From assembly GCA_021776735.1 (NCBI GenBank), contig JAJFFH010000027.1, positions 558,001 to 622,000 on the forward strand: DNA of 64,000 nucleotides, in the 5' to 3' direction. This stretch comes from Planctomycetota bacterium (GTDB lineage: Bacteria; Planctomycetota; PLA2). Numbering within the stretch: position 1 is the first letter of the stretch; every line of letters starts with the position of its first letter. The position numbers and the translations under genes are program-made. The notes under the pieces were generated by a model that was not told the origin of the DNA, made no database searches, and saw only the letters and a list, made by a program, of their open reading frames with translations. Of this stretch, positions 1,196-61,533 are shown one piece after another.

Positions 1196-1207
1196 ATCGC
1201 CGTCCGT
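1196..1207 (+). repeat. Dispersed 12-bp word ATCGCCGTCCGT, copy 1
   Basis: Exact copy, intergenic, preceded by CCGAGGC exactly as in the copy at 20769. See the finding on this word. Confidence 0.8.
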
Positions 1208-1400
1208 AGGCTGTCGCCGGAATGGAGTGCTCCGTGCTGCAACGCGCACAAGAGCTGCACAGCGGCCAGCCATGCAAGGCAAAATAATCCGTACCACGGC
1301 CCGCATCGTAGGCAGGCACCGGGGTCAACCGCCCCGCTAGCGAAATGCGCCAGAGGCGGTTTTCGAGGGGGTCTCAACGGGTAGGATCCGCGCCAAACCA

Positions 1401-3485
1401 GTGTCGGAACCGCAGCGACTAGAAAAGAAGCTGGGTCTGTTCGGGATCTACGCCATTGCCACCGGTGCCACGCTGAGTGCTGGCTTTTTCCTGCTGCCCG
1501 GTCTCGCCTTTGCCCAAGCCGGGCCCGCGATGGTGCTCTGCTACATGCTGGCCGCGATCCCGCTCGTGCCGGCGATGCTGAGCAAGATCGAGTTGGGTAC
1601 GGCGATGCCGCGTGCCGGCGGCATCTACTACTTCCTCGACCGGGCCATGGGACCGTTGGTCGGGACGATCGGCGGGTTTGGAACCTGGGTCGCGCTCGTG
1701 CTCAAGGTTTCCTTCGCGCTCGTGGGCATGGGCGCCTATCTGGAGATATTTTTTCCGGAGTTGCCCGTCAAGGCCGTGGCCATCGGTCTCGCGCTGGCGC
1801 TTGGGGTGGTCAACCTTCGTGGTGCGGAAAAGAGCACGCGGATCCAGATGGTGCTCGTCGCCGGTCTGCTCGGCATCCTCGGGTTCTTTCTGGCGAGTGA
1901 GATTCCGAGCGTTCGTGCCGAGCGGTTCCACGGGTTTTTCGACTCGGGCTGGGATGCCATCATCGCGACGACCGGGCTCGTCTACATCAGCTACGTCGGC
2001 ATTACGAACGTGATCAGTCTGTCCGAGGAGATCATCAACCCGGACCGCAACCTGCCACGCGGCATCTTCCTGTCGATCGGCACCGCGATCCTCATCTACC
2101 TCGTCGGGACGATTGTGCTCGTGGGTGTGCTTCCGCCGGAGAAGCTCTCGGGCACGCTGACGCCGGTCGCCGCCGCTGCCGCGGAAGTCGGCGGTCGGTC
2201 GCTCCAGATCCTGGTCTCGGTCGCGGCGCTGCTCGCCTTCGTGTCCGTCGCAAACGCCGGGACGATGAGCGCATCACGCTATCCGCTTGCGATGAGCCGG
2301 GACGGACTGTTGCCGCGCCGTTTCCAACGCGTCAACAGCCGTGGCATTCCCGCGACGTCGGTGGTCTACACCGTCGTGTCGATCATCGTCATCCTGCTCG
2401 TGTTCGACGTGCGCAACATCGCCAAGCTCGCGAGCGCCTTTCAGCTCCTCATGTTCGCGATGGTCTGTCTCTCCGCGGTCGTGATGCGCGAGAGCCGCAT
2501 CGAGGCCTACGACCCGAGCTACCGGGCGCCGTGGTACCCGTACCTGCAGATCATCGGGATCGTCGCGCCGATATTTCTGATCGTCGAAATGGGACTCTTG
2601 CCGACCGCATTCAGTGCAGGACTGATCGCGTTCGGAACGATCTGGTACCTCAAGAGGGCCCGGCACCACGTCGATCGAAGCGGCGCGATCTTTCATGTCT
2701 TTGAGCGCCTGGGACAAAACCGCCACGAAGGGATCGACACGGAGCTGCGCACCATTTTGAAGGAAAAGGGCCTGCGCCACGACGACCCGTTCGACGAGGT
2801 CGTGGCACGCAGCTTCGTGTTGGACTTTCACGAACCGACGACGTTCGAGGAGGTTGTCGAGCGATCCATCCCGTGGATCGCAACCCATGTGGAGACAAGC
2901 GCCGACGAGCTCAAGGAGCAGATCCTGGCCGGGGAGCGGCTCGGGGCGACACCGGTCGCGCGCGATGTCGCGTTGCCCCATTTCCGCGACGGTACGATCG
3001 ATCACGCACAACTTGTCCTGGCTCGCGGGCGCCAAGGCATCGTGCTCGCGCATCGGGACGAGGAATCCGGCAAACTGGTATCGACAACGGTCCGGGCGGT
3101 GATTTTGCTCGTGAGCCCGAAGCGTGATCCCGGCCAACACCTCCGGCTGCTCGCCCAGATCGCCGGCCACGTTGAAGACCAGGACTTCAAGAGGGACTGG
3201 GGCCAGGCGATCGATGAACAAGAACTGAAGGAAGTCCTGTTGCGCGAGGAGCGCTGGCTGTCGCTGATCATTCACCACGGAGCAAAAACCGAGGTGATGA
3301 TCGGCGTGGCCGTACAGGATCTGGCGTTGCCCGACGGCAGCCTGGTCGCGATGCTGCGCCGCGGCGAACTCGTGATCGTACCGCGAGGAAACACGGTGCT
3401 CGAAGCCGGAGATCGGCTCACGATCATCGGCGAACCCGAGGTGATCGCCGAGACGCTCGCGCTTTATTTTGGGGAGCCTGCGTGA
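1401..3485 (+). CDS. APC amino-acid permease fused to PTS EIIA-like and TrkA_C domains
   Basis: Predicted inner-membrane transporter of 694 aa, starting at GTG. Residues 1-430 are an APC-superfamily permease with about 12 hydrophobic segments and the helix-1 glycine-rich stretch around IATGATLSAGFF. Residues about 460-610 resemble a PTS EIIA (fructose/nitrogen type) domain, with LPHF placing a candidate phospho-histidine at His527. Residues about 630-692 resemble a TrkA_C/RCK_C ligand-binding domain. The tail domains suggest cytosolic gating by phosphorylation state or a small ligand; this is inference. The substrate cannot be named. There is no clear Shine-Dalgarno; TAGGAT at 1382-1387 is a possible -10. 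Confidence 0.88.
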   Translation: MSEPQRLEKKLGLFGIYAIATGATLSAGFFLLPGLAFAQAGPAMVLCYMLAAIPLVPAMLSKIELGTAMPRAGGIYYFLDRAMGPLVGTIGGFGTWVALVLKVSFALVGMGAYLEIFFPELPVKAVAIGLALALGVVNLRGAEKSTRIQMVLVAGLLGILGFFLASEIPSVRAERFHGFFDSGWDAIIATTGLVYISYVGITNVISLSEEIINPDRNLPRGIFLSIGTAILIYLVGTIVLVGVLPPEKLSGTLTPVAAAAAEVGGRSLQILVSVAALLAFVSVANAGTMSASRYPLAMSRDGLLPRRFQRVNSRGIPATSVVYTVVSIIVILLVFDVRNIAKLASAFQLLMFAMVCLSAVVMRESRIEAYDPSYRAPWYPYLQIIGIVAPIFLIVEMGLLPTAFSAGLIAFGTIWYLKRARHHVDRSGAIFHVFERLGQNRHEGIDTELRTILKEKGLRHDDPFDEVVARSFVLDFHEPTTFEEVVERSIPWIATHVETSADELKEQILAGERLGATPVARDVALPHFRDGTIDHAQLVLARGRQGIVLAHRDEESGKLVSTTVRAVILLVSPKRDPGQHLRLLAQIAGHVEDQDFKRDWGQAIDEQELKEVLLREERWLSLIIHHGAKTEVMIGVAVQDLALPDGSLVAMLRRGELVIVPRGNTVLEAGDRLTIIGEPEVIAETLALYFGEPA

Positions 3486-3498
3486 AGTGTGGCCACTG

Positions 3499-3523
3499 CG
3501 AAAACCCGCATGGCGGGTTTTCG
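3499..3523. repeat. REP-like palindrome, perfect 11-bp stem
   Basis: CGAAAACCCGC, loop ATG, GCGGGTTTTCG, 14 bp after the permease stop. Its left flank TGGCCACTGCG is identical to that of the copy at 1024. Confidence 0.75.
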
Positions 3524-3736
3524 ATAGCTGCGCGGACGGCCCTCCTGCGAACACACGCCGCGGCCGCCGAATACCCGCTTCGCGGATTGTTGCCAGCGGA
3601 GGTGGCGAACCTCCTGGAGCCGTGCGCTGCGGGCCGCCGGACGGTTGTCGTGCGTGCGGACGACTGGCCGCTGCGCAGCTTGTCCACGCGGCCCATCCGG
3701 GCGGCGGGGCCTGGTTCGCGAATCGCGGGGTTGGCT

Positions 3737-3742
3737 TAGGAT
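3737..3742 (+). promoter_or_regulatory. Leaderless-type -10 (TAGGAT) for the esterase gene
   Basis: TAGGAT ends 6 nt before the ATG at 3749, so transcription would begin at the A of ATG. No Shine-Dalgarno is present; the -35 is weak. Confidence 0.5.
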
Positions 3743-3748
3743 TGGGGC

Positions 3749-5047: not shown

Positions 5048-6379
5048 CTATCGGCCGTGTCTTTGCTGCTTCCAGAAGCGGAGTTGGAAGAGGATGCGCG
5101 AGCACGGCCGGAGCAGGGCGTAGATGTCGTCGTGGTCCTCGATCAACACCGCTTTCTCGTACAGGTCGTAGGCCTTTTGAAAGGGATTGATGACCGCTTC
5201 GATCTCGGCTGTCGAAGCGTTTGCGACCCCCTTCTTGACCAGGTCGCGGTAGAGCTTCAGCGCGCGCTTGCGGTACGGCGCCGCGTCACGGAGTCGGGCC
5301 AGCGCCTTCGGGTGCCTAACCCGATTCTTGTTGCCGCGCCGCTTGCCCTTCCTGGATCCGTCCAGCTTGAGTCGATTCGGGCGGCTCCGCGGCTTCGGGT
5401 CGCCGCGATCTCGCGGAGCCTCGTCGATGGCCTCGCCGTCCGTTCCTGACGTGTCCTCGCTGCCGTTGCGCAGCAGTGCGGCCGGCTCCTGGCGCTCCAG
5501 CTTGGCCAGCTCGCACTGCGCGAAGACGCGATAGAGTTCCTTTTGCGACTCGGCCGGAACGCGGTGGCGCACCGCCGACAAGAAGAACGGTTTCTGCTCG
5601 TCTTTTTGCAGCAGCCGTTCCAAGAGAGTAGCCGCAGCCGCCGGACGGTCCGCGCGACACGCGGCCTCGACGAGCGCGAACAAGCGGGTACCGGTCGTTG
5701 CCTGGTCTTCGCCCTCGAGCCGGATCCGGTCCGCCACCCGCTGCAGCGCAATGTCTCTGGGAATCTCGCGCCGCCCCGTGATGGCGGCGTTCGGATACGT
5801 CTGGGAACGGCCTGTCGCTTCCTCGATCCGCAGCCCGCCGGCGGTCTCTCGCGTGAAGCCTTCGACCTTGTCGCCGCCCCGCGTCGTGACGACGATGTAG
5901 GCGCCCTGCGGCAGGCCCTTGGGGAACGCGCGCAGAAAAGCGCTCCCTAGTCGCGCCCAGCCGCGGCGCACTTCGTCGCGACCGGCGAACAGCTTCGCAG
6001 CCTTCTCGAAGTCGCCCGCCGAAAACGCCTGGTGTGCCAGCGTCAAGGGATCCGGAGGCGGAGCCTTCGGCTGCGGATTGACCTTCGGCTTGTCCTTCGG
6101 GTCGGGTTGTGTATCACGCTTGGGTTTGCCGCTTGAGCCCGCGCCCTTTTCGGGCGTCTCGGGCTTCTTGGGGGCACCCTGGTCGGGAACATCGCCGTCC
6201 GTCTGCTCCTGGTCGTTGGGCTCTCCCTTTCTGGGGGCACCGGACTGCCGCCCCGGCAACGCACTCGCCTGCCGCCGGAACGTGCTCCAAGTCTCGTCCG
6301 GCGTCCGAAAGCCCTGGCCGGCCCAGAACACGCCCACGGGCACGACGACGACAAGGAGCAGGAAGAGAGCAATGCGCAC
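5048..6379 (-). CDS. Membrane-anchored protein of unknown function with disordered linker
   Basis: 443 aa, starting at GTG. An N-terminal hydrophobic segment (ALFLLLVVVVPVGVFWAG) anchors it. Residues about 45-110 are Pro/Lys/Gly-rich and probably disordered, followed by alpha-helical sequence with TPR-like character (LAHQAFSAGDFEKAAKLF). I do not recognise a family. The linker contains an exact copy of the 12-bp word (6191-6202, read as TDGD) and a one-mismatch copy lies at 5432-5443 (TDGE), both in poorly constrained regions. GATAAA at 6386-6391 lies 6 nt before the GTG, which suggests a leaderless transcript. Confidence 0.75.
   Translation of the reverse strand: MRIALFLLLVVVVPVGVFWAGQGFRTPDETWSTFRRQASALPGRQSGAPRKGEPNDQEQTDGDVPDQGAPKKPETPEKGAGSSGKPKRDTQPDPKDKPKVNPQPKAPPPDPLTLAHQAFSAGDFEKAAKLFAGRDEVRRGWARLGSAFLRAFPKGLPQGAYIVVTTRGGDKVEGFTRETAGGLRIEEATGRSQTYPNAAITGRREIPRDIALQRVADRIRLEGEDQATTGTRLFALVEAACRADRPAAAATLLERLLQKDEQKPFFLSAVRHRVPAESQKELYRVFAQCELAKLERQEPAALLRNGSEDTSGTDGEAIDEAPRDRGDPKPRSRPNRLKLDGSRKGKRRGNKNRVRHPKALARLRDAAPYRKRALKLYRDLVKKGVANASTAEIEAVINPFQKAYDLYEKAVLIEDHDDIYALLRPCSRILFQLRFWKQQRHGR
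6191..6202 (+). repeat. Dispersed 12-bp word, copy 2 (inside the CDS linker)
   Basis: Exact copy within the Pro/Lys-rich linker of the minus-strand gene, where almost any residues would be tolerated. Confidence 0.75.
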
Positions 6380-6415
6380 GGGTGGTTTATCGGAGGAACA
6401 GGGGCGGTTGTCCAG

Positions 6416-7671: not shown

Positions 7672-8804
7672 TAGTAGTGCGCGACGATCCACCGCTCGTC
7701 CTTGCCCCGGCCCGCGAAACCGATGGCTCCCATCTGGCAAAGACCCACTCCGTGGCCCCAACCGCCGCCGCGTACGACCCAGCCGGACTTCGAGCGTTCG
7801 AGGTCTTCGATCAGGGTCGAACGCAGCCGTGATCCGCCGAGGCGCAAGCGCAACTCGCCGGCGTGAAACGATTTCTTGCCGCTGTCCGCAGCCAACTCGA
7901 GGCGCGCCGCGCGCAACCCGACTCGCTGCTCGATGCGAACCGCGTGCAGCGTGCCCGTGAGCCCGGCCGCGCGCAGCCACGCGTCGTCGGAAATCTCGGT
8001 TTGCCAGCGGTAATACTTGCTCTTGACGCACGCTTCGCAGGGGACGGATTGGAGCGCCGCCGGGCCGCCGCGGTTCAGGCCGGTGCGGACCGCCGCCGTC
8101 GCGCCGCCGCAGGTCGAGTGGTAGTAGGCCTTGAGCGGCTCGCCGTCTTGCGAGAGATACAGCCCGATGGTCTTTTGCACCCCGGCGCGCAGGTGTCCGT
8201 CGTCGGGGGCGAAACGCACGCCGACGTAGCGTTGGAACAGCGTGGTGTCATCGACGTCGTAGTCGTGCTCTGGCTCGTCGCGGCGCTTGAGGAGATAATG
8301 GAGCGTGTAGGAACGGACGGCGATGGCTTGGGCCGCGGCGGCGTCTTCCGGAACATGGGCGAGCGGCAGTTCGCCGCGCAACACGCCGAGCACGTAGTTT
8401 TCGAGCTTCACGCGGTTCACGATCCGTCCGTCGCGGATCTGCAACTCGCCCGAGTAGGTGTGGTCGCCCACAGACAGGATGCCGTCCGGGGCGTGGATGC
8501 GAACGGGGCCGTCGAAGCCCGTGACGCCGAGATACCCGTCGTCCTGTCCGTAGAGCCCGATGGCGTCCGCGTGATGCGTCGCGCCGCCGTGCTCGATCAA
8601 CAGGCCCTGCCGGCCCCGCACGACGAACTTGGACTCCGTTGCCAAGCTCCTGAGCCAGACGCGGACCATCGGCTCGTGGCCGTCGAGCACGCCGTACCGC
8701 GTGACGGCCGGACCGGGATCATGCGCCGGCGCACGGCAGTTTCCTGCGAACAGGAGGGGCAGCGCAATAGCCAAGGGGTAGAGAACGGGGAGAACGGCGC
8801 GCAT
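7641..8804 (-). CDS. SpoIID/LytB-domain protein, exported lipoprotein-like
   Basis: 387 aa with signal sequence LPLLFAGNCRAPA; the Cys could be a lipobox cysteine. The SpoIID domain is clear: ENYVLGVLRGELP, the repeated AVRSYTLHYL element, YYHSTCGGATAAV, and the terminal GGGWGHGVGLCQMGA. In sporulating bacteria SpoIID is a lytic transglycosylase acting on stripped peptidoglycan; homologues in non-sporulators probably also trim cell wall. It starts 8 bp after ruvB stops, so the two are co-transcribed. A frame extending further upstream inside ruvB is not used; the signal peptide fixes this start. Confidence 0.9.
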   Translation of the reverse strand: MRAVLPVLYPLAIALPLLFAGNCRAPAHDPGPAVTRYGVLDGHEPMVRVWLRSLATESKFVVRGRQGLLIEHGGATHHADAIGLYGQDDGYLGVTGFDGPVRIHAPDGILSVGDHTYSGELQIRDGRIVNRVKLENYVLGVLRGELPLAHVPEDAAAAQAIAVRSYTLHYLLKRRDEPEHDYDVDDTTLFQRYVGVRFAPDDGHLRAGVQKTIGLYLSQDGEPLKAYYHSTCGGATAAVRTGLNRGGPAALQSVPCEACVKSKYYRWQTEISDDAWLRAAGLTGTLHAVRIEQRVGLRAARLELAADSGKKSFHAGELRLRLGGSRLRSTLIEDLERSKSGWVVRGGGWGHGVGLCQMGAIGFAGRGKDERWIVAHYYPGAALRRAY

Positions 8805-12264: not shown

Positions 12265-13191
12265 GTGGGAACCAGGGTGACACGGCAAACGGACGGCGAT
12301 TCTTGCGCGCAGGACCGGCCCCCCGGGATCGTCGCGCAGGTGCGCGAAACCGCGGCCATGATCAAGGTGGCGCACTCGGTGTTCGCGCTGCCGTTCGCCC
12401 TGGCCGCGGCCGCGCTGGCGCTCCGCGCCGAGGGAGGCTGGTCGTGGGGAGCGGTGTTTTGGATCGTGTGGTGCGCCGTGTTCGCGCGCACCGCGGCGAT
12501 GGCCCAGAACCGTCTTGCCGACGCGAGGCTCGACGCCGCCAATCCACGCACCCAAAACCGCGCGCTCCCGGCGGGCCGCGTGTCACGAAAGTTCGTTCTT
12601 GTTCTCGTCGTCTTGTCGTCGCTCCTGTTTACCGGCGGCGCGTGGATGCTCGATCCGTTGTGCGCCGCCTTGACGCCGGTTGTACTGGTCGTGCTCCTCG
12701 GCTACCCGTACGCCAAGCGGATCACGTTCCTGTGCCACTTCTGGCTGGGCTTCGCGCTCGGACTTGCGCCGATCGGCGCGTGGGTCGCCGTGCACGGCTT
12801 CGCCGGTTTTGCGACGCCGCTCCTCCTGGCCTTCGCGGTCCTGCTGTGGACCGGTGGATTCGACGTGATCTATTCGTGTCAGGACGCGCAACACGACAAG
12901 AACCACGGCCTGCATTCGCTGCCCGCCTACCTGGGGGTCGCGGGCGCCCTCCGCCTCGCCCGCTTGCTGCACGGAACGGCCTGGATTTGCCTGGCCGCAC
13001 TTGTCTGGGTCAACCCATACCTGGGCTGGCTGTACGGAATCGGACTGGTGCTCGCCGCGGCACTCCTCGTGTACGAACACTCCCTCGTCACGCCCGACGA
13101 CCTCTCGCGAGTAAACGTCGCCTTCTTCACCCTGAACGGTCTGGTGTCGGTCGTCCTGGGCGCCCTGACGATCGCCGACGCGTGGCTATAG
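12265..13191 (+). CDS. UbiA-family prenyltransferase (probable MqnP-like, menaquinone)
   Basis: Integral membrane aromatic prenyltransferase. Both Asp-rich motifs are present: NRLADARLDA and DVIYSCQDAQHDK, plus about eight hydrophobic segments. By linkage to menG, ubiX and the distant mqnA it most likely prenylates the futalosine-pathway naphthoate. The start is uncertain: GTG 12265 and GTG 12277 would both place the 12-bp word (12289-12300, TDGD) inside the protein, while ATG 12358 (MIKVAHSVFALPFAL) would leave the word intergenic. The latter fits UbiA families, which begin shortly before the first helix. Confidence 0.88.
   Translation: MGTRVTRQTDGDSCAQDRPPGIVAQVRETAAMIKVAHSVFALPFALAAAALALRAEGGWSWGAVFWIVWCAVFARTAAMAQNRLADARLDAANPRTQNRALPAGRVSRKFVLVLVVLSSLLFTGGAWMLDPLCAALTPVVLVVLLGYPYAKRITFLCHFWLGFALGLAPIGAWVAVHGFAGFATPLLLAFAVLLWTGGFDVIYSCQDAQHDKNHGLHSLPAYLGVAGALRLARLLHGTAWICLAALVWVNPYLGWLYGIGLVLAAALLVYEHSLVTPDDLSRVNVAFFTLNGLVSVVLGALTIADAWL
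12289..12300 (-). repeat. Dispersed 12-bp word, copy 3
   Basis: Exact copy, 44 bp after the ubiX stop and at the uncertain start of the ubiA-type gene. Confidence 0.8.
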
Positions 13192-16852: not shown

Positions 16853-16932
16853 GCCAAGAGCGAACACATCTTGAGCACATCCTGATCGCCTGATCGGATG
16901 CTGCGACATGCGCGGGACCCGAGTCGGCCTGC

Positions 16933-16944
16933 ATCGCCGTCCGT
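16933..16944 (+). repeat. Dispersed 12-bp word, copy 4
   Basis: Exact copy, beginning 3 bp beyond the stop codon of the minus-strand gene that ends at 16948, preceded by GC as in most copies. Confidence 0.8.
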
Positions 16945-16947
16945 TCG

Positions 16948-17916
16948 CTACCGCTCTTTGTGTTTTTCGGCGCCGGGTTTCGTATCCGTGTTGGGCGGAC
17001 GCAGGGCCTTGTCCGGAAGGGCCTCGTTCAGAAACAACGTTACGCGACCGTAGACCATGCCGGTCTTGTTGCGCGACTTCTTGTCCGTCGGGACGGCATT
17101 GTGGACCGAGAAGATTCGCGGCAGGACGAGGCCTGAGCGCTTGTCTTTCTTGTACGCACCGAAGTAGTAGACGAACTCGATTCGCTTCGGGGCATCGCGC
17201 CTGTACTGGACCGCCTTCTTGATCCGATTCGTTTTCGTATCGACGAACAGCACGAAGCGCGGCTCGCCTTGCGGGTGGACCTCCAGGGCGTGGTAGGTCT
17301 GCTTGCGGTCCGGAAAGATCCACTTCAACTCGAACGGTGTGTCTCTTTCGATGCGGACCGGCGCGGGGGCGGCGAACTTCACGGCCGTGCTCTCGGCGTC
17401 GAGACGGCTCGGGAGCATGAGCCGGAGCATACGTTCGAAATCCTTCCGCTCCTTGCGGATGGTTCGAACCGAGCCCCGATCTTCGCGGTTGCGGACGCGC
17501 AACCGACGGATCCCGTTCTTGCCGCGCTCCCAGTAGTGCCGTCCGATCACGCCGCGCTCCGAGCCCGAGCCGTCCGCACCGGCCGTGGTCTGCACGCGGA
17601 AGGCGTGATCCTGGCGCCACCAGTAGGTTCGCGCGACCACATGAGTGCCCTGATCGGGCGTGCTGGCCTGACCGCGAAAAGTCAACCGCACGTCGGTGAC
17701 TTCTTGGGCCGGCAGCGCACCCTGGCTCCGGATCGCGTTGTGTAGCAGCTTGCGCGCCTCGTTGGCCCGGCCCTTCGCCGGTTGCGTCGGCTCCGGCTCC
17801 GGTTCGGCGCGGGCGGCCACGGTGAACAGGGCGAGCGCGACCATGGCCCGTTGGAGCGGGACGCGCAGAATCCGGAGAGCGGAGAGCGTCGGGGGGGGCC
17901 GGTGGCGCGGCTTCAT
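16948..17916 (-). CDS. Exported protein of unknown function (LolA-like fold possible)
   Basis: 322 aa. A positively charged start (MKPRHRPPPT) and hydrophobic helix ending ALFTVAARAE suggest a Sec signal peptide. The mature part has a run of beta-strand-like stretches (VTDVRLTFRGQAST, RFVLFVDTKTNRIKKAVQY, RIEFVYYFGAYKKD) that recalls LolA/LolB-type or outer-membrane lipoprotein sorting folds, without a defining motif. TACAAT at 17924-17929 ends 7 nt before the ATG at 17916, which supports this start over an in-frame ATG at 17925. Confidence 0.72.
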   Translation of the reverse strand: MKPRHRPPPTLSALRILRVPLQRAMVALALFTVAARAEPEPEPTQPAKGRANEARKLLHNAIRSQGALPAQEVTDVRLTFRGQASTPDQGTHVVARTYWWRQDHAFRVQTTAGADGSGSERGVIGRHYWERGKNGIRRLRVRNREDRGSVRTIRKERKDFERMLRLMLPSRLDAESTAVKFAAPAPVRIERDTPFELKWIFPDRKQTYHALEVHPQGEPRFVLFVDTKTNRIKKAVQYRRDAPKRIEFVYYFGAYKKDKRSGLVLPRIFSVHNAVPTDKKSRNKTGMVYGRVTLFLNEALPDKALRPPNTDTKPGAEKHKER

Positions 17917-17985: not shown

Positions 17986-19335
17986 TTGCCGGACAGCGAT
18001 CCGCTCTTCACCTGCGAGGAACTCGAGGGTGGGCTGCGTCTGCACGTCCACCGCACCCGGGCGTTCAAGACCGTCACGGCGCAGATCGCACTGCACGCGC
18101 CGTTGGACGAGGGTACCGCGGCGCGCGCGGTCGTGCCCCGTGTTCTGGCGCGCGGGACGCGCACCCTCCCCGATCTGCGCTCGGTTCAGGTCGAGTTGGA
18201 CCGGCTCTTCGGAGCGGCGCTATCCGGCGATGCCCGCAAGTTCGGGGAACGGCACGTGCTCCATTTTCGGGCGAGCTGGGTTACGGATCGACTTGCGGGC
18301 ATGCCGCTCCTCGACCGCATGGCGGACTTTGTCGGCGAGTACCTGTTTGAGCCGGCCGTGGACGACGACGGGACGCCGCTGAGGACGCGCGACATCGAGC
18401 AGGAGCGAAAGATGCTCGCGGACGAGGCGGCCGCCATCATCGACGACAAGGGTCGGTACGCGCGCTTCCGGCTCATCGAGACCATGTGCTCCTCGGAAGC
18501 CTATGCACGGCCGGCGATCGGCCGACGGGCGGAAATCGAGGCGCTCACGGTCGGCGACGTGCGTGACGCCTGGCAAGAGCTCGTCGAGCAAGCGCCGATG
18601 GATCTGTTCTTGGTGGGCGACGTGGAGATGGCCAGCGCGCGGAGATTCGCCCAGCGTTTCTGGCGTGCCGGAAACCGTCGTCCCGCCGATCCCGGTCCGA
18701 CGTTCGCGGGAGCGGTTCCGGGAGACGGCGCCCGAACGGTACGCGAACACGCCCGCGTCGGCCAGGCCAAGCTCGACATGGGCTTTCGAACGTCGATCCG
18801 GCTCGGGGATCCCCGCGCGCCGGCGCTTGCCGTCTTCAATGCGCTGTTCGGCGGCACCCCCGTTGGCAAACTTTTTAAGATCGTGCGCGAACGCGAATCG
18901 CTCTGCTATTCCATCTCGAGCGTGGTCGAACGAACCAAGGGTCTCGTGTTTGTGCACGCCGGAATCGATGAGACTGACTTTACCCGCGCCCATACGCTGA
19001 TCCTGGAGCAACTCGACGCGCTGCGCGCCGGCGAAGTCGCCGAGACCGAAATGGAACTCGCGCGAGAGATGATCCTGACCGGTCTGCGCACCGCGCGCGA
19101 CGCGCCGGGACTGCTGATCGGCTTCGCTCTCGAACGGACGCTGAACGGGGTAGCCCCCGATCTCGAGCGCCTCGCGACCGCGATTGCCGCCGTCACTATC
19201 GACGACGTTGCGGAGGCGGCGCGCACGGTGCAACTCGACACGGTCTTTCTTCTGGCCGAGGAGGAAGCCCCGACCGCGAGCTCCGCCGGAAACGACACTT
19301 CCAACGAGGCCTCTGACGCGAAGGGCCGCGCGTGA
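17986..19335 (+). CDS. M16 peptidase-like protein, non-catalytic partner (YmfF-like)
   Basis: 449 aa, M16 fold, but the zinc motif HxxEH is absent: the region that should hold it reads LARGTRTLPDLRSVQ. Such a protein paired with an active partner resembles the YmfF/YmfH pair of Bacillus. C-terminal features include GGTPVGKLFKIVRERESLCYSISS, the R/Y substrate-binding element of the second M16 half. A TTG start is inferred from the -10 spacing and the lack of other starts. It overlaps the next gene by 4 nt (GTGA), so the two are co-translated. Confidence 0.85.
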   Translation: MPDSDPLFTCEELEGGLRLHVHRTRAFKTVTAQIALHAPLDEGTAARAVVPRVLARGTRTLPDLRSVQVELDRLFGAALSGDARKFGERHVLHFRASWVTDRLAGMPLLDRMADFVGEYLFEPAVDDDGTPLRTRDIEQERKMLADEAAAIIDDKGRYARFRLIETMCSSEAYARPAIGRRAEIEALTVGDVRDAWQELVEQAPMDLFLVGDVEMASARRFAQRFWRAGNRRPADPGPTFAGAVPGDGARTVREHARVGQAKLDMGFRTSIRLGDPRAPALAVFNALFGGTPVGKLFKIVRERESLCYSISSVVERTKGLVFVHAGIDETDFTRAHTLILEQLDALRAGEVAETEMELAREMILTGLRTARDAPGLLIGFALERTLNGVAPDLERLATAIAAVTIDDVAEAARTVQLDTVFLLAEEEAPTASSAGNDTSNEASDAKGRA

Positions 19336-20630
19336 ACCGCAGCGTCCTGCTCGACCCGGCGCTGGACGAGGAGATCCACCGGTGCGAGTTCGCATCGGGA
19401 CTGACCGCGTACGTCGTGCGCAAGCCCGGGTTTACGAAGTCCTACGCCGCGCTCGCCGCACCGTACGGCTCCATCGACACGACGCTGCGCCGGGGCGGAG
19501 AGACAGCGACGCTCCTCCCCGACGGCGTGGCCCATTTTCTTGAGCACAAGGTCTTCGAAACCAAGGACGGCGATGCCTTCGATCTCTTCGCCGCGCGCGG
19601 CGCATCCGCCAACGCGTACACGTCGTTTTCGTCTACGCGCTACCTCTTCGGATCGAGCCGCGACTACGCCGGCAACCTGCGTCTTCTGCTCGACACGGTG
19701 TTCGACCTCTTCGTGACCGACGAGAACGTCGAGAAGGAAAAGGGCATCATCGGCCAGGAAATCGCGATGTACGACGACGACCCGGACTGGCGGCTCTACT
19801 TCGGCGGGCTGACGGCGCTGTACGCGCACCATCCGGTTCGGATCGACATCGCCGGCACGGCCGCAACGATCGCCGGCATCGGGCCCGATCTCCTGCGCTC
19901 GATTCACGCCGCGTATTACCATCCGCGCCGGATGGTCCTTGCCGCGGTCTCGCCCGACCCGGTCGAGGCGACGTTCGACACCATTGAACAGAGCCTTGGC
20001 GGGCGCTCATTCGGAGAACCGGCCGAACGCGAGATCGACGTGGACGAACCCCGCGCCGCCGCGCAGGCCGAGGCGCGGATGGAGCTTCCCGTGGCGCGCC
20101 CGCGACTCCTGCTCGGGTTCAAGGACGTGCCGCCCAAGGCCGGTGGACGTGTTCAGCTGCGCCAGGAGCTGGCGACCGCGGTGGCACTCGACTGCCTCTT
20201 CGGCAACTCCGGATCGATTTTTCTGCCGCTGTACGAAGAGGGCCTCGTGGACGAACACTTTTCATGCAGTTACGAGGCGGATCGGACCTACGCGTTCGGC
20301 ATGATCGGCGGCGAAACCGACGACCCCGACCGGCTCCGCGGGCGCCTGGAAGGAGATCTCGACTGCGCCGCGCGAGACGGCATTTCCGCGGACGACGTCG
20401 AGCGGGTGCGCAACAAGGAAGTGGGGGTGTACGCGCGGGCGTTCAACGCGCCCGAGGCGATCGCGAACCTGCTCGTCCAGCACCACCTGCGCGGTACAAC
20501 CGTGATCGACTATCGCGAAGAACTCTTCGCCCTCGAGGCCGAGGCGGTGAATGCGCGCTTGCGCGAGCTTCTGCAGCCCGCGAGCCGAGCCTGCGTGATC
20601 GCCACACCGCGCTCCGGCGCGGCCTCCTGA
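19332..20630 (+). CDS. M16 zinc metallopeptidase, catalytic partner (YmfH-like)
   Basis: 432 aa, starting at GTG. The inverted zinc motif HFLEH is intact and EKGIIGQEIAMYDD gives the downstream glutamate. KDGDAFDLFAARGASANAYTS is the conserved substrate-channel region. With the preceding non-catalytic gene it likely forms a heterodimeric peptide-degrading enzyme. The substrate is unknown. Confidence 0.9.
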   Translation: MNRSVLLDPALDEEIHRCEFASGLTAYVVRKPGFTKSYAALAAPYGSIDTTLRRGGETATLLPDGVAHFLEHKVFETKDGDAFDLFAARGASANAYTSFSSTRYLFGSSRDYAGNLRLLLDTVFDLFVTDENVEKEKGIIGQEIAMYDDDPDWRLYFGGLTALYAHHPVRIDIAGTAATIAGIGPDLLRSIHAAYYHPRRMVLAAVSPDPVEATFDTIEQSLGGRSFGEPAEREIDVDEPRAAAQAEARMELPVARPRLLLGFKDVPPKAGGRVQLRQELATAVALDCLFGNSGSIFLPLYEEGLVDEHFSCSYEADRTYAFGMIGGETDDPDRLRGRLEGDLDCAARDGISADDVERVRNKEVGVYARAFNAPEAIANLLVQHHLRGTTVIDYREELFALEAEAVNARLRELLQPASRACVIATPRSGAAS

Positions 20631-20714: not shown

Positions 20715-21611
20715 CTACGGATCGTCGGAGGCGAGCGCGGCCCGAAAGATGGCGAGGATTTCCGAGGCATCGCCGTCCGTGTGCTGTAGTTCGAATCGCT
20801 TTAGCCATGTGCGTTGCCGCCGCGACAACCGCACGGTGTTGCTGATGATTCGGCGCCGCGCTTCCGTCATGTCGTAGCGCCCCTCGAGGCACCCGAGGAT
20901 CTCCTTGTAGCCGACCGCCTGGGAGGCCGTGCGGCCCAGGGTCAGTCCACGCACCTCGTCGACGAGTCCGCGCGCAAACATGTCGTCCACGCGCTTCTCG
21001 ATGCGGGCTCGCAGCTCCTCTCGCGGACGGTCGATCGCCACGATGACGGCGCGGTACCGGTCCTTGCCGCCGAACTGTTGTTGCTGCTCCGAGAGCGGGC
21101 GGCCCGTCGTCGCGTAGACCTCCAGCGCCCGCACGATGCGTCTCCGGTCGTTGGGATGCACGCGTGCCGCCGACGCGGGATCGATGGCATCGAGGCGAGC
21201 GAACAGCTTGTCGAGCGGCTCGTTCTCCAGCCGGGCGCGCAACTCGGGGTCGCGCGGCGCGCCTTCAAACACCCCCTTGAGCAGGCCCATCAGGTAGAGC
21301 CCGGTGCCACCGACGACGAGCGGAACGCGGGCGCGGGAGCGGATGGCCCTGATCGCCGCGTCGGCCCGGTCGAGGTACTGGCGCAGGTCGAAGTCCTCGT
21401 CGGGATCGAGCAGGTCGATGAGGTGGTGGGGGATGCCGCGCGTGTCTTTCGGCTTGTCCGTTCCGATGTCCATGCCGCGGTACAAGAGCATCGAATCGAG
21501 CGAGATGATCTCCGCGTGCAGGACGGGTGCGATCTCCAGCGCCACGCTCGACTTGCCGCTGGCCGTTGTCCCGAGCAGCACGAGCAGGGGCGGCGCGGCC
21601 ACGGAAGACAT
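20715..21611 (-). CDS. miaA: tRNA dimethylallyltransferase
   Basis: Prenylates A37 of tRNAs reading UNN codons. 298 aa. P-loop GTTASGKSS, DSMLLYRGMDIGTDKP, the HHLIDLLDP element, GGTGLY, DRRRIVRALEVY and a C-terminal RRQRTWLKRFE. The last 20 residues contain the 12-bp word read as HTDGDA. It is divergent from nadD with only 25 bp between start codons. Confidence 0.96.
   Translation of the reverse strand: MSSVAAPPLLVLLGTTASGKSSVALEIAPVLHAEIISLDSMLLYRGMDIGTDKPKDTRGIPHHLIDLLDPDEDFDLRQYLDRADAAIRAIRSRARVPLVVGGTGLYLMGLLKGVFEGAPRDPELRARLENEPLDKLFARLDAIDPASAARVHPNDRRRIVRALEVYATTGRPLSEQQQQFGGKDRYRAVIVAIDRPREELRARIEKRVDDMFARGLVDEVRGLTLGRTASQAVGYKEILGCLEGRYDMTEARRRIISNTVRLSRRQRTWLKRFELQHTDGDASEILAIFRAALASDDP
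20769..20780 (+). repeat. Dispersed 12-bp word, copy 5 (in the miaA C-terminal tail)
   Basis: Exact copy preceded by CCGAGGC as in copy 1. It encodes residues after the conserved MiaA core. Confidence 0.75.
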
Positions 21612-24754: not shown

Positions 24755-24784
24755 CAACGGGCGTCAGGAACGGACGGATGTCCT

Positions 24785-25977: not shown

Positions 25978-26835
25978 CTAACCACCGGTGCCCGGGCCGG
26001 GAGCCGGCGTGTCGCCGCTCTCTTCGGGCCGATCGACATCTTGGGCTTGCGGAAGCGGGATCACCCGAACAAACGTCCGCTGCGGGCGCGCGTCGTCGAT
26101 TCCCGAACTCTTGCCGACGAAGTTGAGTTCGGGCGGTTCGATCGTCAAGGTCACGATGACCGCCGTCGGATATCCGCGCCGCTGCTCGGAGTCCCAGCTC
26201 TCGAACTTTTCGAGCTGGTTGTCCGTGTCGACATCGGCGCGGGCGTCTTCTTCGACACGGTAGCCGACATACGTGACGTCGAACGCGACAACCCGGTCGT
26301 AGATCTCGAAGTACTCGCCGCCCTTGGTGGGCAGGCTGTCCGGGTAGTAGCTCTCGCGCCGGTACAGCTTGCGCACGTTGCGTCCCGCCAGCGAGCTGCG
26401 AGTCAAGCGGTAGCCGACCTCGCAGATGGGACTGCGGACCCACGTGTTGTCGCCGTAGACCTGCTCTTGATGGACGGAGCGCCGTCGCGCGACGAAGTCG
26501 AGGCTGTCCGCCGGCTGGCCTCCGAGCGAGTCGTCGTTGCCGCGAAACGGAAACGCGTCGGCGGCATTGGGGTCGCGGTGCAGGCTCACGAGGTCGTCCT
26601 CGATCAGATCGAGAATCGCCGGCCCGACACTCGCAAACGAGCGCTGGTTGCGCGCGTACTCCTCCAGTTCGAGCACGCCCGTGAACACCTGGTAGTACGA
26701 AGACATGAGCAACGCGAAGAGGACCGTGGCCAAAATGACCTCGACCAGCGTAAAGCCACGCCGGGCTCGCGGCACCGGCGAGGCGCGAAGCCTCGACCGG
26801 CCGGCATCAGGGCCGACGTCTTCGCGTTCGCTCAT
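25978..26835 (-). CDS. gspJ: Type II secretion minor pseudopilin GspJ
   Basis: 285 aa. Long basic leader, then the prepilin site RRGFTLVEVILATVLFALL. GspJ is a minor pseudopilin of the pilus tip, a partner of GspI and GspK. The Pro/Gly-rich C-terminus (DTPAPGPGTGG) is unusual. It overlaps gspI by 4 nt (ATGA). A gspK gene does not follow. Confidence 0.88.
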   Translation of the reverse strand: MSEREDVGPDAGRSRLRASPVPRARRGFTLVEVILATVLFALLMSSYYQVFTGVLELEEYARNQRSFASVGPAILDLIEDDLVSLHRDPNAADAFPFRGNDDSLGGQPADSLDFVARRRSVHQEQVYGDNTWVRSPICEVGYRLTRSSLAGRNVRKLYRRESYYPDSLPTKGGEYFEIYDRVVAFDVTYVGYRVEEDARADVDTDNQLEKFESWDSEQRRGYPTAVIVTLTIEPPELNFVGKSSGIDDARPQRTFVRVIPLPQAQDVDRPEESGDTPAPGPGTGG

Positions 26836-27476
26836 CGGATGCCGCTCTCCTCATCCTCCTCGGGCGGAAGAAGAACGGCCGTCCAGGCCGAGAGCGGACG
26901 GGCGCCGCGCCGTTGTTCGTCGTCGGCGGCCGGGCGCTCGTCCCAGCCCGGCGGATACACGGTGACGCGAATAAACAACATCCGGTCGACCTCGTCGGGC
27001 TGCACCTCGTCGCCCGCCTCGTCCTCGCTCTCAGCCTCTGTGCCGCCGCCCTCCTGGGGAAACAGGGGGCTGAAACCCTCCCCGTCCATCTCGACGCGGC
27101 CCTGTGCTCCCGCCGCGACGACCTCCTGGAAATCGACTTCCCAGCGGTAGCCAGCGTAACGATCGCCGAGCACTTTGCGTTCGTCGAGCAGTCGCGTCGA
27201 GACATCTGCCGGAAACTCCCCGTCGGTTGAGCTGCGATACTCCTCGTGCTCAAGCGCAAGAAGTTCGAGCCGCAGCCGGATCAGCTCTGCCATGTCCCGC
27301 TCGATCTCCGCCCGCAAAATGGAGTCCGAAGCGTGCGCGTGGCCCGAAAGCAGAAACATCGACATCAGGGCGAACAGCATCAGCGCGATCACGACCTCGA
27401 GCAACGTCATGCCGCGCTTGCGGCAGGGCCCGCGCGAGCACCCGCGGCGGTCGAAACATCGCCGTCCGTTCGTCAT
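26832..27476 (-). CDS. gspI: Type II secretion minor pseudopilin GspI
   Basis: 214 aa. Prepilin site KRGMTLLEVVIALMLFALM, typical of GspI. An acidic insert (TEAESEDEAGDEVQPDEVD) precedes the last strand. The leader is long (22 residues) and partly encoded by a copy of the 12-bp word, a segment removed by the prepilin peptidase. It overlaps gspH and gspJ by 4 nt each. Assignment among I, J and H rests on order and motif. Confidence 0.85.
   Translation of the reverse strand: MTNGRRCFDRRGCSRGPCRKRGMTLLEVVIALMLFALMSMFLLSGHAHASDSILRAEIERDMAELIRLRLELLALEHEEYRSSTDGEFPADVSTRLLDERKVLGDRYAGYRWEVDFQEVVAAGAQGRVEMDGEGFSPLFPQEGGGTEAESEDEAGDEVQPDEVDRMLFIRVTVYPPGWDERPAADDEQRRGARPLSAWTAVLLPPEEDEESGIR
27458..27469 (+). 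repeat. Dispersed 12-bp word, copy 6 (in the gspI leader)
   Basis: Exact copy at the 5' end of gspI, in the part of the prepilin that is cleaved off. Confidence 0.75.
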
Positions 27477-28060
27477 CGCCCGATCTCAGACTCGGTCTTC
27501 TTGAAGTCCTCGATCACGCGGCCGGGCGAGTACGAGACGAAGCCCGGGAAGTTCACCTTGATCGTTCGAATGCGTTCGTCCTCGTTGAGCGACTTGATGT
27601 TGTCGGACTCGAGCACGAGCGAGTGCGGCGGTACGGTGCCGCCGGGGTCGTACTTGATCCGGTAGCGGCCCTTGTCGATCCGACGCCGCCCTTCGTAGAG
27701 TTCGATCGAGATGCCCTCGGGAAGGCGGTGCCAGTTCAGATCCTCGGGGGCGATGTCGGGCTCGAGCACGAAGTACCGGATCGGATCGGCGTCCTCTTCC
27801 GCGGGCTGCTCTTCGACCTCGACGGGAATCTGAACCGCCCAGCGGTTCCCATCGGTGTCGATGTGCATCGCGTAGGACGCCTGGTCGATGACCGCCTGGA
27901 CCTTGAGCAGCTCGATGGTGGTGCCGATGCGCGACACCTCCGACTCGAGCTCCTTTTCCGCGACAAGGTAGTCGAGCGCAAGCGGGGAAAAGGCCAGCAG
28001 CAGGCCGATGATGACGAGGACCGCGACGAGTTCGAGGAGGGTAAAGGCGCGCCGATACAT
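27473..28060 (-). CDS. gspH: Type II secretion pseudopilin GspH
   Basis: 195 aa. Short leader MYRRAFTLLELVAVLVIIGLL; the cleavage position is Ala rather than Gly. The protein then has a beta-rich domain with an acidic stretch (VEEQPAEEDADP). It is translated with gspI (ATGA overlap) and starts 15 bp after gspG. Confidence 0.85.
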   Translation of the reverse strand: MYRRAFTLLELVAVLVIIGLLLAFSPLALDYLVAEKELESEVSRIGTTIELLKVQAVIDQASYAMHIDTDGNRWAVQIPVEVEEQPAEEDADPIRYFVLEPDIAPEDLNWHRLPEGISIELYEGRRRIDKGRYRIKYDPGGTVPPHSLVLESDNIKSLNEDERIRTIKVNFPGFVSYSPGRVIEDFKKTESEIGR

Positions 28061-28075
28061 GCCCGTTGGACGCGG

Positions 28076-28474
28076 CTATCCGTCGTCTTCCTTCGGGTAC
28101 ATGATGTCGTCCGACGTTCCGTCCTGGCCGTCCTCGCCCCACGAGACGACGCGCACGTCCTTGCCGTCCGGCTCGAGGATGTAGTCGTTGCCCCAAGGAT
28201 CCTGCTGGATGCGGATGAAGGGCGAGTCGTCCTTGTCCGGCTCGATCGGCGTCTCCATCTCCTCGAGCGACGCGGGGAACTTCTTCTTGCGCAGCTTCCA
28301 GTAGTGCGCCTTGTCGTAGTAGTCCTTGCACTGCGTCTGCGCCACGCCCTCCTGGCCGAAGCCGAGCATCTTCCAGACCTCGGGACCAACGAGCGCGGCC
28401 AAAAGGCCGACGATGACGACGACAACCATGATTTCAATGAGGGTGAACCCCCGGTGGTTGTTCTTTTTAGGCAT
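28076..28474 (-). CDS. gspG: Type II secretion major pseudopilin GspG
   Basis: 132 aa. Prepilin site NHRGFTLIEIMVVVVIVGLLAALV, and the GspG signature PWGNDYILEPDGKDVRVVSWG followed by the calcium-binding GEDGQDGTSDDI. It polymerises into the pseudopilus. Confidence 0.96.
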   Translation of the reverse strand: MPKKNNHRGFTLIEIMVVVVIVGLLAALVGPEVWKMLGFGQEGVAQTQCKDYYDKAHYWKLRKKKFPASLEEMETPIEPDKDDSPFIRIQQDPWGNDYILEPDGKDVRVVSWGEDGQDGTSDDIMYPKEDDG

Positions 28475-28528
28475 GTCGATTCAACCCTGTGTTCGGGACC
28501 ATTTGTCCATTTGTCCAGTTCTCGGTTT

Positions 28529-29785
28529 CTACTTCCGGATACTCGTGGACGTTTGAAGGATCGGCAGCATCACGGCGATGACGATGAAGCCGACGACGAA
28601 GGCCAGGATGACGATCATGGCAGGCTCGATCACGGCCAGCGCACGTGTCGTGGATGCCTCGATTTCGTCCTCATACGCCTCCGCGACGCGCTCGAGCATC
28701 TCTTCAAGCTGGCCGGTCTGCTCGCCGACCGCGACCATGTAGCCGACCACCGGCGGAAACACGCCCGATTTCTTGAGCGGCGTCGCGATGTCGGCGCCCT
28801 CGAGAATGCGCGTGCGCACTTCTTCGAGAACGTTTTCCATGAGCTTGTTGTCGAGCACCGTCCTCACGATGGCAAGCGAGTCGAGCACGGTTACGCCCGA
28901 CCGCAGCAGCGTGGCCATCGTGACGGCGAACCGGCTCACGATCACCTTCTTGAACAGGCTGCCCAGGACGGGAAGGCGCAGTTTTGTCGAGTCCCACCAC
29001 AGGCGTACCGGCGGTCGGACGAGGATGACGTAGCGCCAGATGATCCAGCCGAAGAACCCCGTCAAGAGAAGCCAGACCAGGTTGTGCTGCAAGAACACCG
29101 ACGCGTTGTCGAGCAGGCGCGTCATCCACGGAAGCGACTGGCCGCGCGACTTCGCGATCGTCACCAGCTTGGGCACGACGACGTTCACCAGAAAGATCAC
29201 GACTCCCGCGCCGACGGTGAGCATGATCATCGGATAGATCAGCGCCGTCTTGACGCGCGACGCGATGCGCTGCTGCTTGACGCGGAACTCCGCGAGCCGC
29301 ACGAGGACGTCGTCCAGGTTTCCCGACGCCTCGCCGGCGCGGACCATGTTGACGTAGAGGTCGTCGAAGAGCTTGGGGTGCATCGCGAGAGCGTCCGCCA
29401 GGCTCTTGCCCCGCGTGATCTGTTCGCGCAGGTCGCGAAAAATCACCTCCACGTCCTTGTGCTCGACCTGCTCGATCAGCGCGGTCAGGGACTGGGCCAG
29501 GGGAATGCCCGAGCGAACCAGCGTGGCGAGCTGCCGCGTGTAGATCGGCAGCGTTTGCGCGCCGCGGACCCGGCGATCGACCTTGAAAATCCGGCCGAAG
29601 GACGAGCGCTTCGGCCCCTTCGCGTCCTCTTGGCCTTCCGCCGAGACACCCGAGACAACGAGATCCGTGACCATGACGCCCTGCCCGCGCAACTTGGCGC
29701 GCGCCTCGCGCGCCGTGTCGGCGTCGACGATCCCAGTCCGGTTTCCGCCGGTCGGATCAAATCCCTTGTACTCGTAGATCGCCAT
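28529..29785 (-). CDS. gspF: Type II secretion inner-membrane protein GspF
   Basis: 418 aa. Two T2SSF domains, each with four-helix elements (LYTRQ-like LPIYTRQLATLVRSGIPL and RFAVTMATLLRSGV), and three membrane segments. It forms the platform that GspE drives. The gene begins 24 bp after gspE ends. Confidence 0.96.
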   Translation of the reverse strand: MAIYEYKGFDPTGGNRTGIVDADTAREARAKLRGQGVMVTDLVVSGVSAEGQEDAKGPKRSSFGRIFKVDRRVRGAQTLPIYTRQLATLVRSGIPLAQSLTALIEQVEHKDVEVIFRDLREQITRGKSLADALAMHPKLFDDLYVNMVRAGEASGNLDDVLVRLAEFRVKQQRIASRVKTALIYPMIMLTVGAGVVIFLVNVVVPKLVTIAKSRGQSLPWMTRLLDNASVFLQHNLVWLLLTGFFGWIIWRYVILVRPPVRLWWDSTKLRLPVLGSLFKKVIVSRFAVTMATLLRSGVTVLDSLAIVRTVLDNKLMENVLEEVRTRILEGADIATPLKKSGVFPPVVGYMVAVGEQTGQLEEMLERVAEAYEDEIEASTTRALAVIEPAMIVILAFVVGFIVIAVMLPILQTSTSIRK

Positions 29786-31545: not shown

Positions 31546-31557
31546 ACGGACGGCGAT
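31546..31557 (-). repeat. Dispersed 12-bp word, copy 7
   Basis: Exact copy in the 5' region of gspE, preceded by GC on its own strand. Confidence 0.8.
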
Positions 31558-41542: not shown

Positions 41543-41588
41543 AACGGACGGCGATGCTTTTGGGGCTGCCCGAGTATCGCCGTTCGTT
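41543..41588 (-). terminator. Hairpin formed by an inverted pair of the 12-bp word
   Basis: AACGGACGGCGAT (41543-41555) and ATCGCCGTTCGTT (41576-41588) pair over 13 bp with one mismatch across a 20-nt loop. It lies just after the stop of the minus-strand fusion gene, as a terminator would. 41544-41555 is exact copy 8 of the word. Confidence 0.5.
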
Positions 41589-42702: not shown

Positions 42703-42778
42703 CGTTGACGGGTTATAGCAGCCGTGTCGGGCCGATGAAGGGATAGCCGAAGGACGGCGATTTCTCCCCGGGCACTGG

Positions 42779-55833: not shown

Positions 55834-57791
<1,958 letters not shown>

Positions 57792-57792
<1 letters not shown>

Positions 57793-59503: not shown

Positions 59504-59510
59504 TCAACGG

Positions 59511-59990: not shown

Positions 59991-59997
59991 GCTCGGT

Positions 59998-60007
59998 ACT
60001 CTACAAT
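59998..60007. promoter_or_regulatory. Overlapping divergent -10 boxes (rpe and minus-strand gene)
   Basis: Minus strand TAGAGT (59998-60003), 7 nt from the GTG at 59990. Plus strand TACAAT (60002-60007), 8 nt from the GTG at 60016. They share two bases, so the promoters exclude each other. The start codons are only 25 bp apart. Confidence 0.55.
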
Positions 60008-60015
60008 CGAGCACC

Positions 60016-60654
60016 GTGGATGTTCTGATTGCTCCGTCGGTCCTGAGCGCCGATTTCGCCTGTCTTACCGATGAGCTGGCTGATGCGGCCGAGGGCGGCG
60101 CCGACTGGTTCCACCTCGACGTGATGGACGGGCATTTCGTGCCCAACATCACGTTCGGCCCGTTCGTCGTCAAGGCGATCCGCGCCGCCACCGAGCTGTT
60201 CCTCGATTGCCATCTGATGATTCAGGATCCGCTCACCTACGCACCGCAGTTCGCGAAAGCCGGAGCGGACCTGGTCACGTTTCACGCGGAAGTCGATCAG
60301 GATCCGGAGCAGATCATCGACGCGATCGAGGCCCAGGGAAAAAAAGCTGGCATGGTCGTCAACCCCGGTACGGACGCGCAGGTGCTGCAACACTGGTTGC
60401 CGCGCTTGTCGCTGGTCGTCGTGATGTCGGTCAAGCCCGGGTTCGCCGGCCAGTCGTTCATGCCCGACGTGCTCGAGAAAATCGCCGTCCTGCGCTCGTT
60501 GGGCTACGAGGGCAACATCGAGATGGACGGCGGCGTGTCGCCGGACACGGCGCGCGCGTGCAAGGACGCGGGTGCGACGGTGCTGGTCGCGGGCAGCGCG
60601 GTGTTCGGCGAGGCGGACCGCGCCGCGGCAATCCGCGCGATCCGGGAGGCGTAG
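60016..60654 (+). CDS. rpe: Ribulose-phosphate 3-epimerase
   Basis: 212 aa, pentose phosphate pathway. IAPSVLSADFACL, HLDVMDGHFVPNITFGP, VNPGT, VMSVKPGFAGQSFM and EMDGGVSPDTA. GTG start. Followed after 2 bp by accD. Confidence 0.97.
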   Translation: MDVLIAPSVLSADFACLTDELADAAEGGADWFHLDVMDGHFVPNITFGPFVVKAIRAATELFLDCHLMIQDPLTYAPQFAKAGADLVTFHAEVDQDPEQIIDAIEAQGKKAGMVVNPGTDAQVLQHWLPRLSLVVVMSVKPGFAGQSFMPDVLEKIAVLRSLGYEGNIEMDGGVSPDTARACKDAGATVLVAGSAVFGEADRAAAIRAIREA

Positions 60655-60656
60655 GC

Positions 60657-61484
60657 ATGGGCTGGGCATTTCGGCGAAAAAAAAACATCCCCGGCGGCCT
60701 TTGGGACAAGTGCCCGAAGTGCGCCGCGATGCTTCAAAAACGCCAGCTCGAGGAAAGTGGTGGCGTCTGCCCGCAGTGCGGACACCACGGGCGCATCGGC
60801 GCCGCGCGACGGATCGGCGTCATGCTCGACGCCGGTAGCTTCGTCGAGATCGCGACCGACCTGAAGACCAGCGACCCGCTCGAGTTCGCCGGGTACAGCG
60901 GCACGATCGAGCGCTCCAAGAAACGCTCCAACGTCGATGAGGCCGCGATCGTCGGCCACGGCAGGATCGAGGAGATGCCGGTCGCGTTCGGCACCCTGGA
61001 CTTCCACTTCGTCGGCGGTTCCATGGGCATCGTCGTAGGCGATCGCATCCGCGCCGCCGCCGAACACGCGTTCGAGAACGAAACCCCCCTGGTGCTGGTC
61101 TCGACGTCGGGCGGCGCCCGCATGCACGAGGGCGCCTTGTCCCTGATGCAGATGGCCAAGACCAGCGCCGCCATCGCACGCCTCGGCGAAACCGGGCTGC
61201 CCTACATCTCGATCCTCGCGGACCCGTGCACCGGCGGCGTCATCGCCTCGTTCGCCGCCCTGGGAGACGTGATCCTCGCCGAGCCGGGCGCCCTGATCGG
61301 CTTCGCCGGCCCCCGTGTCATCCGCACCACGATCGGCACCCAACTGCCCGAGGGATTCCAGACGTCGGAGTTCCTGCTGGAGCACGGCTTCATCGACCGC
61401 ATCGTGCCGCGCCCAACACTGAAAGCCGAAGTCGCCGCCATCCTGCGCAACCTGATGGCCGGTCGCGAAAGAGCAGCAGGGTAG
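60657..61484 (+). CDS. accD: Acetyl-CoA carboxylase carboxyltransferase subunit beta
   Basis: 275 aa. Zinc ribbon CPKC..CPQC, then the carboxyltransferase core STSGGARMHEGALSLMQMAK, ADPCTGGVIASFA and GFAGPRVIRTTIG. AccA is not nearby. The upstream frame inside rpe is not used. Confidence 0.97.
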   Translation: MGWAFRRKKNIPGGLWDKCPKCAAMLQKRQLEESGGVCPQCGHHGRIGAARRIGVMLDAGSFVEIATDLKTSDPLEFAGYSGTIERSKKRSNVDEAAIVGHGRIEEMPVAFGTLDFHFVGGSMGIVVGDRIRAAAEHAFENETPLVLVSTSGGARMHEGALSLMQMAKTSAAIARLGETGLPYISILADPCTGGVIASFAALGDVILAEPGALIGFAGPRVIRTTIGTQLPEGFQTSEFLLEHGFIDRIVPRPTLKAEVAAILRNLMAGRERAAG

Positions 61485-61521
61485 CGACCGCGAGTCAAAC
61501 CAGGGGGCCCGGGGGCAAGGA

Positions 61522-61533
61522 ATCGCCGTCCGT
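61522..61533 (+). repeat. Dispersed 12-bp word, copy 9
   Basis: Exact copy, 37 bp after the accD stop and 17 bp before a palindrome. Confidence 0.8.

Follow-up and report, generated by a model that had tools for sequence, protein, structure and literature searches.

A dispersed 12-bp word as the probable core of a DNA uptake sequence in an uncultured planctomycete lineage

A stretch of 64,000 nucleotides (the window; contig C20:558001-622000) in the genome of an uncultured member of the Planctomycetota (G000; 5.97 Mb in 71 contigs) contains ten exact copies of the 12-bp word ATCGCCGTCCGT, and the question taken up here is whether this word marks DNA for uptake, in the manner of the tags through which Neisseria and Haemophilus recognize their own DNA when taking up free DNA. 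By a home-made codon-usage gene caller, seven of the ten copies are intergenic and three coding, rather than the four intergenic copies counted in a first-pass annotation of this DNA. The intergenic copies lie at 1196..1207 (+); at 12289..12300 (-), 39 bp ahead of the called start of a UbiA gene; at 16933..16944 (+), in a convergent gap; at 27458..27469 (+), between two pilin-like gsp genes; at 31546..31557 (-); at 41544..41555 (-), as an inverted pair with the single-mismatch copy ATCGCCGTTCGT at 41576..41587 (+), the arms of which can form a stem-loop; and at 61522..61533 (+), 37 bp past a gene end. Two coding copies are read in antisense frame 0 as the peptide TDGD, one at 6191..6202 (+) in a gene at 5048-6379(-) and the other at 20769..20780 (+) in the C-terminal tail of miaA (IPP transferase), and the third, at 8313..8324 (-), reads IAVR in sense frame 0 of a SpoIID-domain gene. 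This third copy was overlooked in the first-pass annotation; the nine exact copies that it did list are all present, with coordinates and strands correct. Four of its five near-matches are single-mismatch sites: a CTCGCCGTCCGT variant followed by TTCCTG at 5432..5443 (+), antisense in frame 0 of the 5048-6379(-) gene; the inverted partner at 41576; an intergenic ATCGCCGTCCTT variant at 42750..42761 (-); and 56077. The fifth, at 24770, has more than one mismatch. Additional single-mismatch sites are found at 18507(-) and at 19563..19574(-), the latter again ATCGCCGTCCTT, a recurrent sub-form with 201 occurrences genome-wide, here antisense in a peptidase M16 gene. Sites with at most one mismatch number 16 in the window where dinucleotide shuffles give 1.16, and not one of 100 shuffles attained 16. 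The copy at 27458 lies in a type II secretion cluster (26832-29785) whose genes include a GspF-like one and three that are pilin-like, of gsp G/H/I/J type.

Genome-wide there are 1,520 exact copies of the word, one per 3.9 kb, and a single copy of a reversed-pattern control. Gene-based statistics were drawn from the 857 kb of C20 and a second contig, C3, and motif statistics from 1.24 Mb. C20 and C3 together contain 203 exact copies where about 0.7 (0.56-0.72) are expected from Markov models of orders 1-3 and 2.0 from a model of order 5, and the excess first noticed in the window holds for the genome: the word is present, as an uptake sequence should be, in hundreds to thousands of copies far above the level set by composition. 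In 386 kb of sampled stretches outside the main ones (ten picked for pilin or competence genes and ten from C31, C34 and C36) its density, 0.28 per kb, is near that found elsewhere. The exact form also predominates over its neighbors, another property looked for in uptake sequences, all 36 single-mismatch words together having 107 copies in the 1.24 Mb compared with 312 for the exact word; 45 of the 107 are of the G11T form, which has 201 copies genome-wide.

Alignment of the 203 copies, with position 0 as the first base of the word, displays conservation from about -7 to +21. Upstream, positions -6 to -2 favor purines and A, with A or G at -2 in 92% of copies, and C at -1 in 77%, so that the earlier remark that the word is usually preceded by C was right and the C belongs to a longer motif. 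Downstream of the core the sequence continues as (T/A/C)(C/T)GCT at +12 to +16 and a pyrimidine at +18, followed by weaker preferences at +20/+21 and a weak tail at +31/+32. The extended motif can be written cgaRAC-ATCGCCGTCC-(G)T-n-Y-GCT-nY, and its strictest part is ATCGCCGTCC, found 416 times in the 1.24 Mb and followed by GT in 312. The downstream forms CCGTNNGCT (203 copies), CCGTTCCT (41) and CCTTNGCT (22) all have the same upstream flank, and the GCT/CCT element is therefore able to shift by one base. The motif may be described as bipartite, pairing a strict ATCGCCGTCC core with a GCT/CCT element whose distance from it is variable by one base. Beyond about -7 to +21 the copies are unrelated in sequence, each therefore sitting in a context of its own.

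Among relatives the word is at background level wherever it was searched for, with 0-11 copies in each of 391 other genomes of the phylum, among them 16 others of the order with 0-6 each. A seryl-tRNA synthetase search assigns the host to the Planctomycetota, the best named relatives being genomes of uncultured members of the phylum with 62-70% identity; one compared genome, G003, is of the same family as the host. Words of their own that might serve relatives as a dialect were sought in samples of G001, G002, G006 and G007 and in ~0.42 Mb of G003, and the top words of this part of G003, ACATCTGACGAT and AATGCGGGACC, are for the most part locally clustered or tandemly arrayed rather than dispersed as single copies. 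The enriched word of G001, GAGTCCCGTCAC, resembles tRNA T-arms. A scan of viral contigs with the extended motif yielded one match in one contig, judged to be at chance level. The tandem arrays of G003 have a unit of ~29 bp that holds AACATCTGACGAT, and its clusters of AATGCGGGACC lie beside AGGTTCCGGTGGATAAC, which is DnaA-box-like; such arrays or clusters are at L184:2891-3314, L187:17327-17523, L180:2724-2793 and 16926-17020, and L060:12279-12336.

The placement of the copies bears on the best surviving of the rival explanations, that the word is the site of an abundant DNA-binding protein such as a nucleoid organizer, a marker of chromosome domains or a global regulator. A strict core, a motif of protein-footprint size and the presence of copies in every sampled part of the genome would all suit such a site, as would their even dispersion; on C20 the copies are spaced more evenly than at random (coefficient of variation, CV, 0.81 vs 0.99, p 0.0025), and counts per 20 kb have a variance/mean of 0.92. 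A regulator site is expected to favor upstream regions, however, and it is here that copies are fewest: 94 of the 203 (46%) are intergenic while intergenic DNA makes up 10% of the 857 kb, a 4.6-fold enrichment, and density falls from 1.83 per kb in convergent gaps to 1.16 in tandem and 0.42 in divergent gaps. Within tandem gaps 43 of 55 copies are closer to the 3' end of the upstream gene, and it is at gene 3' ends that copies are most abundant. These figures confirm the intergenic preference suspected from the window and argue against the global regulator that had been offered as one option. Nor does selection of a site alone readily explain an excess of exact over single-mismatch forms of about 3 to 1 at some 1,500 sites, and the restriction of the word to one lineage within a family also speaks against a binding protein of this kind, which we regard as unlikely.

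That the word is a mobile short repeat, of REP or MITE type and propagated by a RAYT/Y1 transposase, is suggested by seven Y1_Tnp matches in the genome and by REP-like palindromes with GGTTCCTCCGC. The core is not palindromic, however, its copies are solitary with unrelated flanks, and only 17 of the 203 are within 120 bp of REP-like motifs. Proteins of word-bearing genes were aligned with relatives, mainly from ~1.18 Mb of G003 (a genome with three copies of its own), and for 32 of the 38 coding words with an aligned relative there is no gap in the relative at the word; none of the remaining six gaps is four residues long, the size that an inserted word would leave. Identity to relatives at the word is 34%, compared with 52% in windows taken at random from those alignments, in keeping with the earlier remark that copies fall in expendable places. 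Because the alignments are mostly ungapped at the word and identity there is low, most copies arose by substitution in permissive stretches, the same outcome that this test gave for the Haemophilus uptake signal sequence (USS) (Redfield 2006, PMC1626085). Substitution rather than insertion, together with enrichment in intergenic and permissive DNA, is the pattern of an uptake sequence, and a palindromic unit spread by insertion is not what is observed; given also the strong frame bias of the coding copies, a mobile repeat is very improbable. The palindromic REP-like family centered on GGTTCCTCCGC is a second family, with ~18 members in the 857 kb (e.g. C20 52172, 52253, 60968 and 194249; C3 166594-166759). 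In the same contigs there are also G-rich tracts of the form G4+CG4+, 82 in number and frequently GGGGGGGGCGGGGGC, and these lift 12-mers of C/G tracts well above expectation.

Still more doubtful are two further proposals. A Chi-like recombination or KOPS-like segregation signal might be as abundant as the word, and such signals are expected to be polarized. The word is not: 74 copies are on the plus and 77 on the minus strand of C20, a contig whose GC skew keeps one sign over most of its length, and the genome-wide figures are 758 and 762. This absence of orientation bias relative to replication, a property of uptake sequences, counts against the segregation or recombination signal considered in the first-pass annotation; in addition, a 12-bp core with flanks exceeds the length of Chi or KOPS, and an intergenic preference does not suit them. 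A family of transcription terminators or RNA stem-loops, no more probable, would accord with the preference for 3' ends and with close pairs of copies, all 11 of those less than 75 bp apart being inverted. Most copies are single, however, half are inside genes, and the 12-mer alone lacks a hairpin. Termination is better regarded as a secondary role of the word, like that in Neisseria and Pasteurellaceae (PMC1852404, PMC13020248). Lastly, a codon or peptide bias toward TDGD or IAVR, to which the readings of the 106 coding copies might point (59 TDGD in antisense frame 0, 25 IAVR; 68 copies antisense and 38 sense), is refuted by the 46% of copies that are intergenic and by their conserved non-coding flanks and is hardly credible; a favored orientation inside genes has also been reported for known uptake sequences (van Passel 2008, PMC2346458).

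By sequence the word is neither of the known uptake signals. It resembles the USS of Haemophilus and other Pasteurellaceae (AAGTGCGGT) in having a strict short core with conserved downstream segments, occurrence on both strands, more exact than single-mismatch copies, an origin by substitution, both coding and intergenic copies, and inverted pairs able to form hairpins (PMC1626085, PMC1852404). It differs in being unrelated in sequence, with neither a AAGTGCGGT nor a ACAAGCGGT core with AT-rich segments, in being conserved on both sides with a downstream GCT at variable spacing, in having no gene-end bias inside genes, and in its lower density in a host of 66% GC and another phylum. With the DNA uptake sequence (DUS) of Neisseriaceae (GCCGTCTGAA, of which the 12-mer has AT in front) it shares the 12-letter length, a number of about 1,500-2,000 copies, a strong intergenic preference and inverted pairs at 3' ends (PMC2397512). 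The planctomycete flanks are conserved whereas those of the Neisseria DUS are not (PMC1626085). The core is ATCGCCGTCC(G)T and not GCCGTCTGAA or a listed dialect of it, the TGAA part is absent, copies are one per 3.9 kb in another phylum, and no ComP homolog is known in the planctomycete host. The hexamer GCCGTC common to the word and the DUS is treated as coincidence, the chance of any common hexamer being an estimated 2-3%. Cyanobacterial HIP1 (GCGATCGC) is likewise a short word in great genome-wide excess; it is, however, palindromic and methyltransferase-linked (PMC4390886), unlike the non-palindromic, strand-specific planctomycete word. REP/RAYT systems also have many dispersed intergenic copies, and Y1_Tnp genes are found in this genome, but the word has no palindrome or unit flanks and its origin is by substitution.

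The machinery that uptake would require is encoded, and the competence and pilus genes that the first-pass annotation had suggested looking for are all present. There is a ComEC of 798 aa (C20:335848-338244, -) with Competence and Lactamase_B domains and a DUF4131 match under its cut-off, a DprA (C62:35004-36116, -) and a ComEA-like protein of 152 aa (C48:93952-94410, +), whose N-terminus is hydrophobic and whose HHH_3 domain is of the ComEA type. The end of contig C42 contains a cluster of a prepilin-peptidase-type protein (PilD), PilT-, PilB- and PilC-like proteins and a pilin; C20 encodes a PilM protein, and the genome has 18 pilin-like N-methylation (N_methyl) matches. Two basic minor pilins, at C53:23327-24019(-) with an isoelectric point of 10.4 and at C67:115789-116361(+) with one of 11.4, are candidates for a receptor on account of their charge only; they share 31% identity across 95 residues, and each adjoins another pilin gene. 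The two belong to parallel clusters, C53:23327-27314(-) and C67:113688-116361(+), each encoding an acidic pilin, a larger protein and the basic pilin.

On the basis of its excess, its lack of polarity, its placement, its origin mainly by substitution, its extended motif, its restriction to a lineage and the machinery genes, ATCGCCGTCCGT is quite probably the strict core of a genomic uptake sequence belonging to a single uncultured lineage of the Planctomycetota, as the first-pass annotation had surmised when it likened the word to such sequences while noting that its letters differ. The best explanation is a signal that evolved independently, is restricted to a genus and spread by biased uptake and recombination. 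The extended motif would be bound by a surface receptor, for which a basic minor pilin located at a type IV pilus tip is the likeliest choice, and retraction of the pilus would pull in motif-bearing DNA, which would then pass ComEA and ComEC and be handed by DprA to recombination. Words born by point mutation would spread and persist because fragments that carry them are taken up and recombined more often, and would come to fill gene ends and permissive protein segments.

Several points weigh against this explanation. The host is known from its genome assembly alone, and we infer preferential uptake, the receptor and the drive. The word, at one copy per 3.9 kb, is sparser than the Haemophilus and Neisseria signals, which occur roughly once per kb; spacing on C3 is not regular (CV 1.19); the 11 close pairs are not in excess of the 9.0 (standard deviation 2.8) expected from intergenic preference alone; and the coding copies show no bias toward gene ends such as is seen in Pasteurellaceae. 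Since ComEC is found in 23 of 25 related genomes, the machinery alone does not predict the word, the former being general and the latter special. Single-sequence structure models of both basic minor pilins are poor (pLDDT, the predicted local distance difference test, 42 and 49), and these candidate receptors have no significant pilin match among solved structures. Finally, the compared genomes include no congener, so that, on what is visible, the trait is confined to this genus or species.

According to a 2025 paper, the uptake-signal trait is known from no families other than Neisseriaceae and Pasteurellaceae, and searches of the open-access literature found no case of a planctomycete uptake signal. 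It is likely that sequence-specific uptake of self-DNA has evolved again in the Planctomycetota, in one genus-level lineage and with a new bipartite signal, the first known outside those two families. If so, the trait would have a third independent origin, in a distant phylum, and would be shown to be capable of arising repeatedly where lineages have competence pili; the old question of why such words spread, whether through the cost of foreign DNA or through passive drive by a biased receptor, would become testable by comparison. Natural transformation would also be implied in an uncultured planctomycete, and the word itself may be used to find relatives of the host and to seek the receptor.

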